From NCBI RefSeq assembly GCF_030068475.1, contig NZ_JAQOSP010000003.1:1-35885 (forward strand): DNA of 35,885 nt. Direction: 5' to 3'. A program made the translations under genes and the position numbers. How positions within the stretch are numbered: position 1 is the stretch's first letter; each line of letters begins with the position of its first letter. The notes beneath the pieces were generated by a model. It had not been told where the DNA came from. It made no database searches and was given only the letters and a program-made list of their open reading frames with translations. Shown piece after piece: positions 1-28,789 of this stretch. The DNA is from Roseofilum acuticapitatum BLCC-M154. Its GTDB lineage: Bacteria > Cyanobacteriota > Cyanobacteriia > Cyanobacteriales > Desertifilaceae.

Positions 1-336
1 CAGCGCTTTGCGCTGTATTGGTGGACAGTAGGAAAAGATCCCCCCTTGCCCCCCTTAAAAAGGGGGGAATAGGAAAGTCCCCCTTTTTAAGGGGGATTTA
101 GGGGGATCAAGATGTCCCACATAACAGCGAAAACTGCTGTATCAGTAAATTTACGTTATTTTTGGATTAAGAAAATTTCTATAACTTTGTTGGTTGCTTA
201 GGGGGTCATACCCTTATTCCCATTTTTCTTTTCTCAGAACATACTAAATAATAGGAGCATTTATGGCCTAGGAAATCCTAGCGCTCAACAGTGAATCTTA
301 AGGGAAAAATCGGTATAAAAGACGAGGTAGTTAGCA
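1..336. other. Intergenic region with palindromic repeat
   Basis: No gene is seen. The left edge carries a short hairpin (CAGCGC-TTT-GCGCTG, 1-15). Positions 37-108 form a long imperfect palindrome starting GATCCCCCC and ending GGGGGATC, with internal blocks of C and G runs, typical of miniature interspersed repeats in cyanobacteria. The rest (110-336) is the upstream region of the TPR gene. A GAGG about 11 nt before the ATG at 337 is the only ribosome-binding-site candidate. Confidence 0.7.
37..108. repeat. Palindromic interspersed repeat (GATCCCCC...GGGGGATC)
   Basis: The two halves are near reverse complements: GATCCCCCCTTG then CCCCCCTTAAAAAGGGGGG on the left, and CCCCCTTTTTAAGGGGG then ATTTAGGGGGATC on the right. 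The transcript could fold into one long or two nested hairpins. It codes for nothing evident. A non-autonomous mobile repeat is the likeliest origin (inference). Confidence 0.65.
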
Positions 337-2290: not shown

Positions 2291-2307
2291 TTCCGCCTTC
2301 GGCGGAA
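2291..2307 (-). terminator. Hairpin downstream of the kinase/FGE gene
   Basis: The stem TTCCGCC/GGCGGAA (7 bp, GAA loop on the - strand) lies 27 bp past the stop codon and is followed on that strand by AAATTTTTT. It can act as an intrinsic terminator. A short G/C-rich hairpin just behind the variable region is also a known feature of DGR targets, so both roles are possible. Confidence 0.6.
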
Positions 2308-2334: not shown

Positions 2335-4299
2335 CTAGAAAGTCCTGCCCGAAACGAGGGGAAGGACAACCCGCAGCCCGATGTTGTTGTCACGAACGTC
2401 GGGATTGTCGTAGACCCGATTCGCGCAACGACAATCCCTCGAATCGCTGCTGTACCAATAACCACCGCGAAGCACTCTTAATTTTGATTCATCGCTAGAT
2501 AGCCATATACTCCCATCAGTAGGAGCGTTATTATAATTATTATGCCAATGGTCGGCACACCACTCCCACAGATTGCCATGCATATCATACAAGCCAAACC
2601 CATTTGGTGGAAAACTTCCTACTGGGGTGGTGGTCTGACGATATTCTCCTTTCGGCTCATCAGCATATCTGTAGTCGGTACTCCCATTATAATTGGCGAG
2701 GTCAGTAGTCAGGGTGTCGCCAAAATGAAAGGGGGTAGTCGTTCCGGCGCGACAGCCATATTCCCATTCCGCCTCGGAAGGCAAGCGATAGGAGTTTCCC
2801 GTATATCGGGACAGCCGGGCGCAGAATTCCTCGCAATCGTACCATGAAACTTGTTCTACGGGCAAGTTTTCTCCCTTAAAACGAGAGGGATTAGATTCTA
2901 GGGTACGATTCACTTGCGGAAACGACGCTACTCTGCGCCATTGCGCCTGGGTAACTTCAAATTTTCCCATATAAAACGGCTGCACCGTCACCGAACGCTG
3001 CGGCCCTTCATCATTATCTCGGTCTTTTTCCTCCGGTGGCGAACCCATGAGGAATGTTCCCCCCGGAATAGCGACCATATCTAAAAAGATGCCTGCTCCC
3101 AAATTCTCCTGGAAATATTGCGCTTGCCGATTTTCCCGTGCAATAATTTCTCCCCGTCGGTTCACGGTCACGACTTCAAACCGGAAGATGGGCAGTTGGG
3201 GTTCCTCTGGTTCGGGTTCTGGCTGTGGTTCCGGTTCGGGTTCGGGTGGTGGTTCCGGTTCAGGCTCTGGTTCTGGACTAATTTCCGGTTCTACTGGTAT
3301 TTCCGGTTCAACACTCGGTTCTAGTTCTCCTCCCCATCCATCCATCACCGAACGCGCCAACAAACTCCCCACAAATCCCATCCCCACTAAACCCACACCT
3401 TGAATGACTCGCCGTCGCGTAGGGTTATTCGATGCTACTGTTGGGCGTGGCGGCGGTGTTGGTGACGGTAGGACAGTCCCTCCTCGCAGTTCTTTCACCT
3501 CCTGCAAAGCTTCCCTCGCGGAACTGTAGCGCTGACGAAAGTGCTGATAAACCATTTTCTGCAACACTCGCTTGAGTCCCCGGCTGGCATGAGGCGCAAA
3601 GGGTTGCCAAATCACTTCTAGGGTATCTGGGTCATCTTTGAACTGGCTGGGTGACTTTCCGGTTAAGGCTTCTATGGCCGTCATCCCCACTGCATAGATA
3701 TCGCTGGCTAATTTGGGCTTACCTACTGCTTGTTCCGTCGGCATATATCCGGGTGTGCCAATGGCAATGGTGAAAACCGTTCCCCCGGTGGGAGTTATCT
3801 GGGAGAGTTCTTGCTTGACTGCTCCAAAGTCAATCAACACCAGCTTGTTATCCCCATCCCGTCGCATCAAGTTATCCGGTTTAATATCCCGATGAATCAC
3901 TTGCTTTTGATGGACAAACTTCAAGGGGATGAGCATCTCTTCTAGGAGTTTCAGTACCTGCTCCTCTGACCAAGGTTTTCCCGGTTGTATCTCCTGTCTC
4001 AATTCATGACCCTGGATATATTCCTGAACCAGATAAAATTGTCCTCCTTCTGCCACAAATGCCAACAGGCGCGGAATTTGATCGTGATTTCCCAATTCTT
4101 CTAAAATTTCCCCTTCCTGGTCAAATAACCGTTTCGCCACTTTCAGACCTTGGGGGTTATTAAACTGGAGCTTGAGCTGTTTCACCACACAGAGGGGATG
4201 TCCCGGACGGTGGATATCTCTGGCGAGGTACGTTATGCCAAATCCTCCCTCGCTCAGTTTCCGTTCGATTTGGTAATGACCCGCAAGCACTTGTGGCAT
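2335..4299 (-). CDS. Ser/Thr kinase with FGE/C-type-lectin ectodomain, candidate DGR target
   Basis: A 654-aa protein. Residues 9-272 form a Hanks-type kinase with all key residues: the glycine loop at 16-21, Lys40, His-Arg-Asp at 136-138, Asn143, Asp-Phe-Gly at 157-159 and a Gly-Thr-Pro-Gly-Tyr activation segment ending Pro-Thr-Glu. A single membrane span (~299-317) follows Arg295-Arg297, which predicts the kinase inside and the rest outside. A Pro/Glu-rich stalk (~327-368) leads to an FGE-sulfatase-type domain (~405-646) of C-type-lectin fold, starting Met-Val-Ala-Ile-Pro-Gly-Gly. The first catalytic Cys of true formylglycine enzymes appears to be Ser, so it is probably a binding domain. 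Codons 614-638 have the layout of a DGR variable region (see findings). The start ATG has no Shine-Dalgarno site, and its leader is the 55-bp inverted repeat, ending 3 bp away. Kinase and fold are firm; DGR status is a strong inference. Confidence 0.93.
   Translation of the reverse strand: MPQVLAGHYQIERKLSEGGFGITYLARDIHRPGHPLCVVKQLKLQFNNPQGLKVAKRLFDQEGEILEELGNHDQIPRLLAFVAEGGQFYLVQEYIQGHELRQEIQPGKPWSEEQVLKLLEEMLIPLKFVHQKQVIHRDIKPDNLMRRDGDNKLVLIDFGAVKQELSQITPTGGTVFTIAIGTPGYMPTEQAVGKPKLASDIYAVGMTAIEALTGKSPSQFKDDPDTLEVIWQPFAPHASRGLKRVLQKMVYQHFRQRYSSAREALQEVKELRGGTVLPSPTPPPRPTVASNNPTRRRVIQGVGLVGMGFVGSLLARSVMDGWGGELEPSVEPEIPVEPEISPEPEPEPEPPPEPEPEPQPEPEPEEPQLPIFRFEVVTVNRRGEIIARENRQAQYFQENLGAGIFLDMVAIPGGTFLMGSPPEEKDRDNDEGPQRSVTVQPFYMGKFEVTQAQWRRVASFPQVNRTLESNPSRFKGENLPVEQVSWYDCEEFCARLSRYTGNSYRLPSEAEWEYGCRAGTTTPFHFGDTLTTDLANYNGSTDYRYADEPKGEYRQTTTPVGSFPPNGFGLYDMHGNLWEWCADHWHNNYNNAPTDGSIWLSSDESKLRVLRGGYWYSSDSRDCRCANRVYDNPDVRDNNIGLRVVLPLVSGRTF
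2356..2470 (-). other. Putative DGR variable region (VR) with IMH-like end
   Basis: Read on the - strand, scaffold codons (CGC GGT GGT, TGG, TGT CGT, GCG AAT CGG, AAT CCC, AAC AAC ATC GGG) alternate with codons TAC, AGC, AGC, GAT, GAT, GTC, TAC, GAC, GAC, GTT and GAC. All of these are reachable from AAC or AAT by changes at the first or second adenine only. The third bases (C/T) are kept. The end, GGGCTGCGGGTTGTC (2366-2380), is G/C-rich like an initiation-of-mutagenic-homology site. No template copy was found in the window. Confidence 0.7.
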
Positions 4300-4302
4300 G
4301 GT

Positions 4303-4357
4303 TCAATTAAAAATTAAAAATTTTCATGTCGGCGACAGCCGAAAAAATTAAAAATGA
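4303..4357. repeat. 55-bp inverted repeat, right copy
   Basis: Exact reverse complement of 2129-2183. It lies 3 bp before the kinase start codon, so it forms the 5' leader of that mRNA. On the - strand it contains a six-codon mini-ORF (Met-Lys-Ile-Phe-Asn-Phe, stop) just ahead of the true start. Confidence 0.92.
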
Positions 4358-7860: not shown

Positions 7861-9192
<1,332 letters not shown>

Positions 9193-24902: not shown

Positions 24903-26387
24903 ATGACTAAGTTGATGATGGCAGAGGCGATCGCCCAGAAAAACTCAAAGCGAAGAAAAACCACAGGGGGAAAATGGATACGCTCGGTAGGGGCGATCGC
25001 CTTAGCGAGTGTCCTGACTTGCAGTAGTTTCCCCTCCCTAGTCTTGGCTCAAAGCCTAAACGCTCCCGTCTCCTCTCCCTTACCCGTAGATGAAGGCTAT
25101 ACCTTGGGAGCAGGCGATCGGCTCAAAGTCGATATTTTTAATGTCCCCGAATATAGTGGCGAATTTTTAGTCTTGTCCGATGGTTCCCTAAATTTACCCC
25201 TCGTAGGAGCCATTCAAGTTCAAGGTTTAACCTTCCCCCAAGCCTCGGATAAAATTGCCACCGTCATGTCTCGCTATCTGCGAAACCCCATCGTCACCCT
25301 CAGCTTAATTGGGGTACGCCCCGTCAAAGTCGGTATAGCCGGAGAAGTCTATCGTCCTGGCGTATACTCCATGTCCTTAAATGGTAATGAAGAAGTGGCC
25401 ATACCCACCGTTACCCGTGTGATTGATTTAGCCGGAGGAATCACCCAAGCCGCAGATATCCGACGGATTCAAGTGCGCCGTACCCGTCCCAGTCAGCAGG
25501 GAAGCGATCAAATTATCACCGTAGATTTGTGGAAATTACTACAAACAGCCGATCTCAGTCAAGACATCCTCCTAAGAGATGGCGATAGTATTTTTATCCC
25601 CACTGCCACCGATGTGGACTTACAAGAAAGTAGTATTTTAGCCAGCGCTAGTTTTGCCGGTGCAGACTCAGGCCCCTTAAAAATAGCGGTTGTCGGCGAA
25701 GTCAAACGTCCCGGCCCCTACACCATCAATAATGACTCAGAACAAAACGATGTGACCGTCACAGCCGCCATTCAATCAGCCGGTGGCATTACCGAACAAG
25801 CCGATATTCGCAATATCCAAGTGCGCCGGTTAACCAAATCTGGACAAGAGCAAATCGTTGATGTGGATCTATGGAAATTGCTCCAAGAAGGGGACTTGCG
25901 CCAAGATCTTCCCTTACAAGAAGGGGATACCATCGTCATCGGCATGGCAACACAACTGAGTCCGGATGAAGCCACGGAACTCGCTTCAACCAGCTTTTCC
26001 CCAGAATTGATCAATATCAATATCGTTGGAGAAGTGATCCAACCGGGTAGAGTAGAGGTTCCACCCAATACGCCCTTAGCCCAGGCTTTATTAGTGGCAG
26101 GCGGATTTAATAATAATGCTAGAGAACGTTCTGTGGAATTAGTCCGTCTTAATCCTAATGGGACGGTCACCAAGCGACAAGTTTCCATTGACTTTAGTCG
26201 AGCGCTGGATGAAGAAAATAATCCGGCTTTGCGTAATAACGATACAATCATCGTGTCTCCGTCCCGTGTAGCTGAATTGGGCAATGCCGTAAGTCCGATA
26301 TTTAATGTCATAGGAACTGTAGGCGGAATCTTTTCGATTCCCAGAACGGTGTATCGTTTATTTGATGGTTTATTCGATGGTTTCTAA
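24903..26387 (+). CDS. Polysaccharide export protein with SLBB domains (Wza-like)
   Basis: A 494-aa outer-membrane-type export protein. After a long basic N-terminus, a signal sequence lies at ~28-50 (Ala-Ile-Ala-Leu-Ala-Ser-Val-Leu, ending Val-Leu-Ala-Gln-Ser). The Poly_export domain (~62-140) starts Tyr-Thr-Leu-Gly-Ala-Gly-Asp. Three SLBB repeats follow, each beginning Val/Ile-x-Gly-Glu-Val-x-x-Pro-Gly (~residues 145, 260 and 375). The first two are followed by near-repeats of Asp-Ile-Arg-x-Ile-Gln-Val-Arg-Arg and Asp-Leu-Trp-Lys-Leu-Leu-Gln, so the region grew by duplication. It works with the Wzc-like protein encoded 98 bp downstream to move exopolysaccharide to the surface. Confidence 0.92.
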   Translation: MTKLMMAEAIAQKNSKRRKTTGGKWIRSVGAIALASVLTCSSFPSLVLAQSLNAPVSSPLPVDEGYTLGAGDRLKVDIFNVPEYSGEFLVLSDGSLNLPLVGAIQVQGLTFPQASDKIATVMSRYLRNPIVTLSLIGVRPVKVGIAGEVYRPGVYSMSLNGNEEVAIPTVTRVIDLAGGITQAADIRRIQVRRTRPSQQGSDQIITVDLWKLLQTADLSQDILLRDGDSIFIPTATDVDLQESSILASASFAGADSGPLKIAVVGEVKRPGPYTINNDSEQNDVTVTAAIQSAGGITEQADIRNIQVRRLTKSGQEQIVDVDLWKLLQEGDLRQDLPLQEGDTIVIGMATQLSPDEATELASTSFSPELININIVGEVIQPGRVEVPPNTPLAQALLVAGGFNNNARERSVELVRLNPNGTVTKRQVSIDFSRALDEENNPALRNNDTIIVSPSRVAELGNAVSPIFNVIGTVGGIFSIPRTVYRLFDGLFDGF

Positions 26388-26485
26388 TGACTAGCTTTAA
26401 TTGATCAATTTTAATTAATCAAACCATACTCCTAGGCGATCGGTTTTATTGCTACACTGCTGTCAATTGAGAGGTTCTGAAATCC

Positions 26486-28789
26486 ATGCAAGCTGGTACT
26501 CCCCCTAAATCTAATCAAAACGGACATAACTCAAACGGCAACGGCCACAACGGTTATAAGCCGTATCCGGTAGCCATCCCTGCTCTTCCCAATGCATCGG
26601 AGACGGAGGAATTTGATCCCAAGCAGTTGTTGGTGATTGCTCGTAGACGCTGGCTGCCCCTGGTGGGAGTGGCGATCGCCGTTACCGGAGCAATCTGGGC
26701 CTGGACGCTGACGCGCACCCCCGTTTATCAAGCGGATTTCCGGATGTTGGTTGAACCCATTTCAGAAGATGATAATTCTAAGGAATTATTACGGTTAGGG
26801 TTCGGGCCGAGCTTTGACTATGCTACTCAAATTGAAGTATTGCGATCGCCCACCCTGCTAGAACCCCTAGTGCGAGAACTCCAACAAACTTATCCCGACA
26901 TGACCTATGGGGAATTAGTCGGAAATTTGACCATTCAACAGGCCCTAGGTGACCAAGAACGATACACCAAGATCCTAAATATCTCCTTTCAAGGAGACGA
27001 TCCTCAAAAAATTAAAGACGTTTTAGACACCTTACTCAAAGGCTATTCTCTCTATGGTGTTCAACTGCGGCAACTCAGTATTCAACGGGTTGTGCAATTT
27101 GTCGAAGAACAACTCCCCGTTATCCGCGAGCAAGTCAACTCATACCAAGCCGAACTAGAAGCCTTTCGGGAACAACATAGCGTCATTGACCCCGAATTTA
27201 GAGGCAATGATATTTCTCGCTTGCTTACCGACATTAATAAACAACAAAAGGACGCACAAACCCAACTAGCCGAACTACAATCGCTGTATGTCGTCCTGCA
27301 AAGGCAATTAGGAGCCTCCCCAGAACAAGCCCTAGCAGAAGCAGCCCTTAGTGAATCCTCTCGATATCAACAACTGCTCAACCAACTCCTAGAAATAGAA
27401 ACCAAGATTGCCGAAGAATCCGTTCGTTTTCAGCCCGATAGCCCCAATATAAAAGTTCTCCTAGAGCAACGACAAAATCTATTACCCCTAATTAACCGAG
27501 AAGCTCAACGGGTCGCGGGCGATCAACCCATTCCGGGCAATAGTGGACAATTAGCCCCTATTTCCGTAGACTTAAGTAAACAATTGGTAGACACAACCAA
27601 TCAGATCCAAGTCCTACAGGTACGTCTCTCGGCCTTAGCTCAAGTTGAAACTCGCCTGAAAGAAGAATTCTCCATTATTCCCGGTTTGGCCAGAGAATAT
27701 ACCGATATCCAACTGAAACTCGAAGTAGCCACCCAAAGCCTAGCCCGACTACTCGAAACTCGGCAAACCCTACAACTGGAGGCGGCGCAAAAATCCGTAT
27801 CTTGGGAAGTTCTTTCTCAACCCTTCCAACCTGGAGCGCCCATTTCTCCCAATGTGCCCCGTAATATAGTCTTAGGCCTCTTCGCCGGAACCTTAATGGG
27901 ATTAGGGGCTGCCCTATTGTCCGAACAACTCGATAATGCTTTCCACTCTACCAACGACCTCAAAGATCTGACGGGCTTACCCCTATTAGGGATTATTCCC
28001 TTTAAGCGAGGCTTGAAACCCATTAGTGCCCCAGAAACGGTTAGGGCGAAAGTGGCAGCAGGCTCGGATCATGAACCGACTCCAGAACAAGCACCAAAAC
28101 GTCCTCTCAATCTGAGCTTAGGAGCCAAGGGGACTTACTATAATTCCTCTCCCTTCCTAGAGTCTTTCCGCTCTCTGTACACCAATATTCGCTTTCTCAG
28201 TTCCGATACACCGATTCGTTCCTTGGTGATTAGCTCTTGTTTACCCATGGAAGGAAAATCGACTGTATCGGTTAATTTAGCGCGATCGGCCGCCGCCATG
28301 GGTCAACGGGTACTCCTTGTTGATGCTGACTTACGCCATCCCATTCTCCATAGTCGGTTAGGGCTACCCAATCTACGGGGATTAAGCAATATTATCACCA
28401 GCGAAATTGACCCCCGTGAAGTCATTCATGCTGTTGAAGATCATTTCTATATGCTCACCTCTGGACAAGTGCCCCCCGATCCCATCAAGCTATTGTCCTC
28501 TCGCAAAATGCAGCATCTGATCGAACAATTCCAAACGGAATACGATCTTGTCATTTATGATACTCCTCCCAGTTTGGGATTAGCGGATGGTAGCTTGCTT
28601 GCCAAGCGTTCAGATGGAATTCTGCTTGTGGTTGCTCTCGGAAAAACCGGGCGCTCTGAACTCAATCAAGTCTTAGATAATCTGAAAATGTCCTATGTAT
28701 CGGTTCTGGGCATTATTGCTAATGGAGTTAAAGGCTTTGCGTCCGGTGTAGATTATTATTACCGAAACTATACCCCCAATGAAGACTAA
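26486..28789 (+). CDS. Wzc-like tyrosine kinase / chain-length determinant
   Basis: A 767-aa inner-membrane protein controlling exopolysaccharide length and export. After an Asn/Gly-rich start, span 1 (~57-74) opens a periplasmic Wzz domain with a coiled-coil stalk (~200-435), and span 2 is at ~459-478. The cytosolic bacterial tyrosine kinase domain has Walker A Pro-Met-Glu-Gly-Lys-Ser-Thr (Lys591), Walker A' Val-Asp-Ala-Asp-Leu-Arg-His-Pro (612-619) and Walker B Val-Ile-Tyr-Asp-Thr-Pro-Pro (689-695). The tail holds Tyr757, 758, 759 and 762, the usual autophosphorylation cluster. It follows the SLBB gene in the same direction with a 98-bp gap, so the two are probably one operon. Confidence 0.94.
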   Translation: MQAGTPPKSNQNGHNSNGNGHNGYKPYPVAIPALPNASETEEFDPKQLLVIARRRWLPLVGVAIAVTGAIWAWTLTRTPVYQADFRMLVEPISEDDNSKELLRLGFGPSFDYATQIEVLRSPTLLEPLVRELQQTYPDMTYGELVGNLTIQQALGDQERYTKILNISFQGDDPQKIKDVLDTLLKGYSLYGVQLRQLSIQRVVQFVEEQLPVIREQVNSYQAELEAFREQHSVIDPEFRGNDISRLLTDINKQQKDAQTQLAELQSLYVVLQRQLGASPEQALAEAALSESSRYQQLLNQLLEIETKIAEESVRFQPDSPNIKVLLEQRQNLLPLINREAQRVAGDQPIPGNSGQLAPISVDLSKQLVDTTNQIQVLQVRLSALAQVETRLKEEFSIIPGLAREYTDIQLKLEVATQSLARLLETRQTLQLEAAQKSVSWEVLSQPFQPGAPISPNVPRNIVLGLFAGTLMGLGAALLSEQLDNAFHSTNDLKDLTGLPLLGIIPFKRGLKPISAPETVRAKVAAGSDHEPTPEQAPKRPLNLSLGAKGTYYNSSPFLESFRSLYTNIRFLSSDTPIRSLVISSCLPMEGKSTVSVNLARSAAAMGQRVLLVDADLRHPILHSRLGLPNLRGLSNIITSEIDPREVIHAVEDHFYMLTSGQVPPDPIKLLSSRKMQHLIEQFQTEYDLVIYDTPPSLGLADGSLLAKRSDGILLVVALGKTGRSELNQVLDNLKMSYVSVLGIIANGVKGFASGVDYYYRNYTPNED

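Follow-up and report, generated by a model that had tools for sequence, protein, structure and literature searches.

A Ser/Thr kinase gene of Roseofilum acuticapitatum BLCC-M154 that ends in an FGE domain with the C-type lectin fold is very probably a remote (trans) target of a diversity-generating retroelement (DGR), its own template being lost or left unassembled. The gene lies in the window, that is, the whole stretch of 35,885 nucleotides that was analyzed, which is one entire contig of a 5.22-Mb genome in 154 contigs. A sequence-only reading had taken the FGE domain of this kinase to be DGR-diversified and suggested a search for a template repeat (TR) matching positions 2356-2470. The diversified domain is retained here, as that of a remote target, but a matching template was found neither in the own genome nor in five further genomes of the genus. 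The gene, coordinates and domains given in that reading were borne out, and the features are as follows.

2335..4299, minus strand: Ser/Thr kinase-FGE (C-type lectin fold) fusion gene, 654 aa
3502..4275, minus strand: Hanks-type protein kinase domain, residues 9-266 (Pkinase, E 3.9e-33)
3343..3417, minus strand: RRR (residues 295-297) followed by a weak hydrophobic span (about 297-319), from hydropathy
3196..3309, minus strand: Pro/Glu-rich linker, residues 331-368
2365..3081, minus strand: FGE-sulfatase domain (PF03781), residues 407-645 (E 3.7e-63)
2368..2469, minus strand: core of the variable region (VR), residues 611-644, 102 nt or 34 codons, from the alignment with the genes C76 and C119
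2357..2379, minus strand: 23-nt block rich in G/C, at the 3' end of the VR, candidate site for the initiation of mutagenic homing (IMH; putative role)
2291..2307, minus strand: perfect hairpin with a 7-bp stem and a GAA loop, TTCCGCCGAAGGCGGAA
2129..2183, no strand assigned: left arm of an inverted repeat, perfect over 55 nt, part of a dispersed repeat
4303..4357, no strand assigned: right arm of the inverted repeat, 55 nt, 3 nt before the start codon

The catalytic motifs of a Hanks-type Ser/Thr kinase are present (VVK at residue 38, HRDIKPDN at 136 and DFG at 157). In the FGE part there are matches to PvdO (E 1.2e-41) and to FGE structures of the SUMF1 type. The VR occupies the 3' end of the gene (core residues 611-644 of 654), with RGGYW from residue 611 and IGLRVV from residue 640 as landmarks. 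A structure prediction is of low confidence (mean pLDDT 59 with 14 sequences; residues 148-218 and 230-262 below 50) and carries no part of the argument, and an Rfam scan of the window gave 0 matches at gathering scores. The remainder of the window resembles ordinary chromosome when its translations are judged by eye, with an enolase-like gene at 7900-9192 and polysaccharide-export-type genes at 24903-28789. The 55-nt inverted repeat was rejected as a gene-specific boundary, since a 31-nt piece of it, with up to 2 mismatches allowed, has 15 copies genome-wide, though its two arms are paired around this gene. One copy of the 31-nt piece ends some 10 nt upstream of the reading frame of another kinase-FGE gene of this genome, C71.

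A search of the own genome (G000) with the window VR found a close copy, C76 (84% identity), and C71 (69%). Among 99 related genomes, own included, for each of which up to eight candidates were scored, so that weak templates could be missed, five had matches at E 1e-8 or better, those outside the own genome being G005:C119 (86%), G002:C79 (78%), G004:C24 (73%) and G036:C92 (73%). By their sequences, the window gene, C76 and C119 are one VR scaffold family, and C79 belongs to it at a greater distance. C119 comes from a sister species and, like C76, is of the TPR-FGE type; the C76 gene is devoid of the amino-terminal part of FGE (L175, G000:C76:9000-14500). Further downstream of the C76 VR gene and on the same strand, there is a 412-codon open frame, transposase-like by eye. 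Outside the VR, the body of the window gene is only 40% and 39% identical to those of C76 and C119, respectively, over 75-76 codons, with 47-48 third-position differences, and therefore the common part is the VR and not the whole gene.

We compared the VR core of these three genes, a small sample of VR sequences. The 102-nt core has 24 variable columns, of which 14 are at the first, ten at the second and none at the third codon position; A is present in 22 of the 24 variable columns and in only six of the 78 invariant ones. As a control, 86 codons of the bodies of the same genes were analyzed and yielded 131 variable columns (41, 36 and 54 at the first, second and third positions, respectively), with A in 72 of the 131 variable and 37 of the 127 invariant columns. 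The core differs from the body in third-position variation (Fisher P = 1.3e-5), in the presence of A among variable columns (P = 4.9e-4) and in its presence among invariant columns (P = 1.8e-4), so that the pattern of a fixed scaffold and variable codons described in the sequence-only reading is beyond chance. The lack of any third-position variation in the core of genes whose bodies are so diverged is an argument for the DGR. Addition of the more distant C79 brings five third-position changes and raises the number of variable columns to 34, of which 30 have A. Silent variation resumes past the core: codons 35 to 38, numbered from 0 at the core start, all differ at the third position, so that the common sequence ends abruptly near the G/C block.

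The pattern is thus of the adenine type, but the stronger claim that each codon listed in the sequence-only reading is an altered AAY codon need not hold. Codon 622 (GAT) is unchanged in the window gene, C76 and C119, and the first G of codon 634 is kept in these three genes and in C79; at these two places GAY template codons fit better. Codon 614 is TAT in the window gene and TCT in C76, C119 and C79, and, judging from this alignment, looks like a private change outside the template adenines. Further codons that vary among the relatives are 621, 627, 632, 638, 639 and 640.

The own genome harbors one DGR, at G000:C87 (L005, L176), composed of a target, Avd (NF033474, E 1.2e-38), a reverse transcriptase (RT) and a TR located after the RT. 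The target is a 917-aa TPR-FGE protein with no kinase match. The RT carries the motif IGNLTSQ, which we take to denote a DGR-type RT, and is the sole one to do so among the RVT_1 matches of this genome; four of the other five have QGxxxSP, and one (L001) has no motif match. The RT frame at L004 (G000:C39) is situated directly upstream of a frame that is cas1-like by eye, and is probably CRISPR-associated and unrelated to the DGR. Relatives of the C87 RT, 90-92% identical to it, were found in G001 and G003, and a DGR with an FGE target VR, an RT and a TR stands at matching places in three of the six genus genomes (L005/L176 at G000:C87, L111 at G003:C37 and L112 at G001:C88; Avd was checked in G000 only). 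In G002, G004 and G005 no DGR-type RT was found, the best RT matches being 27-28% identical. Of the two components for which the sequence-only reading proposed to search the genome, the DGR-type RT is thus present, together with Avd and a TR, whereas this TR is of a different scaffold and none matching the window VR was found in the searches made.

Four VR/TR pairs, each taken from one genome, served as a positive control. Mismatches fall at TR adenines in 11 of 14 cases for C87, 9 of 9 for G003:C37, 13 of 13 for G001:C88 and 10 of 11 for G003:C63. That these pairs differ mostly at adenines also argues for the DGR origin of the window VR. The last of them, G003:C63, is a kinase-FGE gene of a sister species, 82% identical to the window gene over the 94 codons before the VR (G003 shares 1400 identical nt with a Roseofilum halophilum contig, L038); its near adenine-only differences from the TR of its own genome make this close kinase relative a trans DGR target. 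A target VR with the resident scaffold occurs in G002 as well, where no DGR-type RT was found, and its mismatches are at TR adenines in 15 of 17 cases when compared with the G003 TR and in 15 of 18 when compared with the G000 TR.

The kinase-FGE bodies carry both scaffolds, the one with the missing template (window gene) and the resident one (G003:C63), and so do the TPR-FGE bodies (C119 and C87, respectively); at the level of these alignments, body type and template family are uncoupled in the genus. Seven kinase-FGE genes, mostly from Nostoc-type cyanobacteria (L033, L034, L080, L082, L086, L087 and L100), share the near-identical end RGGSWK-S-R/S-LCRS-YRSWNPQ and have no hairpin in the scan described below. 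They are probably non-diversified relatives.

The G/C-rich IMH-like block and the hairpin of the sequence-only reading are both present. The block has one mismatch each in C76 and C119, its first 17 bases being the same in all three genes, and the hairpin lies 60 nt past the VR core. Two copies of the hairpin's 15-mer core exist in the 5.2-Mb genome, one in the window and one at C87:56016-56030, 3' of the resident DGR target, against an expectation of about 0.02 (simple arithmetic with equal bases). This excludes a common genomic repeat, and the hairpin core common to the window gene and the resident DGR target is a further argument for the DGR. At all loci taken together, a G/C hairpin was found at +50..110 in 32 of 106 VR-like stretches, which are related, so the counts are not independent; seven control windows had it in 6, 0, 1, 7, 11 and 7 of 106 and in 5 of 104 stretches, and TRs in 0 of 10. 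The GAA loop is present in 14 of the 32 hairpins and absent from the 12 commonest control-window loops. The same scan did not find the hairpin at C119 or C79. Among VRs that share one locus with a TR it was found at five of 11 (L005, L078, L085, L111 and L112), and not at the six VRs of the TR-bearing loci L063, L067, L077 and L106. Hence the hairpin, as scanned, is not a general requirement. A G/C hairpin with a GAA loop after cyanobacterial FGE VRs may be of use in the search for targets without a template, though it marks only some of them.

A search of the own genome with E values up to 10 turned up no TR for the window VR, and a search of the six genus genomes with the G005 VR as the query (E up to 1) turned up no TR of its scaffold. 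Among 388 genomes of the order, seven, own included, had a match, and among 386 genomes of the phylum, two, own included; none of these was a matching TR, up to two candidates per genome having been scored in both searches, so that weak templates could be missed. The plasmid (72,556) and phage (50,697) records gave no match either, and viral contigs, queried with three exact patterns, gave no template. As a check on the procedure, the VR of the resident target was used as the query, and its TR was recovered in G000, G001 and G003. Given the state of the assembly, failure to see a template is no proof of its absence. Several candidates were inspected and rejected: short leftover matches (eight with the window VR and four with the G005 VR), none of which is template-like; the resident C87 TR, whose scaffold and 3' end differ (VCPLA vs VLPLVSGRT); and a TR of G297 (L154), which belongs to another scaffold (72%).

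The missing template is an argument against a DGR, together with the fact that two genomes with members of the VR family, G005 and G002, have no detected DGR-type RT. Two scenarios would account for these observations; both subdivide the DGR reading and do not compete with it. In the first, to which we assign not quite an even chance, a former DGR of the lineage wrote the VR, the template and perhaps a second RT were then lost, and the variant became fixed. The lack of the template in all six genus assemblies and of a DGR-type RT in G002, G004 and G005 is as expected for such a history, and the departure at codon 614 and the presence of the C76 copy in a truncated gene are signs of an idle system. 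A precedent may be all3226, for which PMC7517822 describes remnant TR-VR homology without a nearby RT. The timing, on the other hand, speaks against it. C76 and C119 are 85% identical over the 94 codons before the VR, where they differ at 12 of the 94 third positions, and have no third-position change in the 34 core codons; at the body rate, the chance of zero silent changes in the core is about 0.01 (simple arithmetic), so the writing of the VR looks recent. The window hairpin is also still perfect.

In the second scenario, whose probability we place short of one half, the template resides on a plasmid, a phage or an unassembled stretch and is used by its own or the resident RT, the target possibly being diversified still. 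The fragmentation of the assembly leaves room for such a template, the VR scaffold is common to two species with little silent change, and PMC7517822 mentions cyanobacterial DGRs on two plasmids. However, three genomes have members of the VR family and the template is in none of their assemblies, and it was found neither in the plasmid and phage records nor, with the three exact patterns, in viral contigs. As an extension of this scenario, a mobile or episomal DGR outside the assembled chromosomes might write kinase-FGE and TPR-FGE genes in more than one species, with targets passing between templates; we regard this as unlikely. If true, a travelling template would give several resident genes the same rewritable scaffold, and DGRs would act in trans on chromosomal signalling genes across species. 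Gene conversion between paralogues, with later diversifying selection acting on a loop that binds a ligand and with no DGR at all, could put one VR on bodies of different descent. It is very improbable, since it leaves unexplained the lack of variation at third codon positions, the presence of A in nearly all variable columns, the near adenine-only differences of the close relative from its template, and the hairpin common with the DGR cassette.

If the window gene is a remote DGR target, errors would arise at the adenines of a template RNA during its reverse transcription, by the resident RT or by a sister RT since lost, and the resulting cDNA would take the place of the 3'-terminal VR of the kinase gene, guided there by the G/C-rich block and the hairpin that follows. 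The template itself would now be gone or unassembled. The outcome would be a kinase whose catalytic half stays fixed while the binding patch of its lectin-like domain is randomised, most likely a sensor with a changeable ligand preference.

The sequence-only reading placed the variable domain outside the cell and the kinase inside. The arginines 295-297 are indeed there, and RRR plus a hydrophobic span presumably resembles a twin-arginine-type anchor, but the span (about 297-319) peaks at only 1.50 on the Kyte-Doolittle scale, and three close relatives, C71 (L009), G003:C63 (L038) and G002:C79 (L029), have no span, with peaks of 0.27-0.45. The hydropathy of the linker reaches 1.5 in five of 24 kinase-FGE sequences, the window's included, and an automated scan found an RR motif plus hydropathy of 1.4 or more in two of the 24; by eye, two of the other four that reach 1.5, L035 and L036, and also L039 (1.18) have an RR/KR-type anchor like that of the window protein. 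A membrane topology is plausible for the window protein, but the case for an ectodomain is weak. According to PMC7517822, a cytosolic location is predicted for the majority of cyanobacterial DGR variable proteins.

The same reading took the loss of the first FGE catalytic cysteine as a pointer to binding rather than catalysis. In alignments with SUMF1 chains no cysteine of the window protein falls on the FGE active-site pair, at the positions we assume for it, and the loss itself is thus upheld. However, these positions are inside the VR, so that the loss in one copy says little: codon 618 is AGC (Ser) in the window gene and TGC (Cys) in G002:C79.

Several known systems resemble the one described here. 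The FGE domain matches formylglycine-generating enzyme (SUMF1; PDB 2aft and others) in sequence with E 1.4e-26, the difference being that the presumed active-site cysteine positions fall in the window VR and are not kept. It also matches Treponema denticola variable protein 1 (PDB 2y3c) with E 7.2e-17, which we take to be a DGR variable protein from another organism and with other partner domains. The resident DGR at G000:C87 has in common with the window gene an FGE target, the hairpin core and the genome, but differs in the TR and 3' end (VCPLA, not VLPLVSGRT) and in its TPR-FGE target without a kinase match. In Bordetella phage BPP-1 (Guo et al. 2011, PMC3240598), efficient homing requires the stem structure of a hairpin located 3' of the VR. 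The window gene has such a G/C-rich hairpin, but with a GAA loop and 60 nt past the core, whereas the phage DGR hairpins described there have four-base GRNA loops and lie 4-34 bp from the VR. For Thiohalocapsa PB-PSB1, PMC10907252 discusses DGRs that act in trans and repeats of the MITE type in the surroundings of DGR loci. A literature search found no paper pairing Roseofilum with a retroelement.

The closest published class is that of the cyanobacterial kinase-CLec remote DGR variable proteins (Vallota-Eastman et al. 2020, PMC7517822). That paper already documents kinase-lectin targets, remote targets and a single remnant VR, and it names kinases as the functional domain met most often. The window gene shares with them a C-terminal CLec domain, a 3'-terminal VR, an N-terminal Ser/Thr kinase and a location distant from the RT, and this fit, along with the resident RT, Avd, TR and target, adds to the case for a DGR. 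It differs in that the DGR of its genome has another scaffold and no template for the window VR was found in the genome or genus assemblies. The window gene is thus a clear case of a kinase with DGR marks and a template missing from the assembly, and the points worth following beyond the published class are the absent template common to two species and the GAA hairpin.
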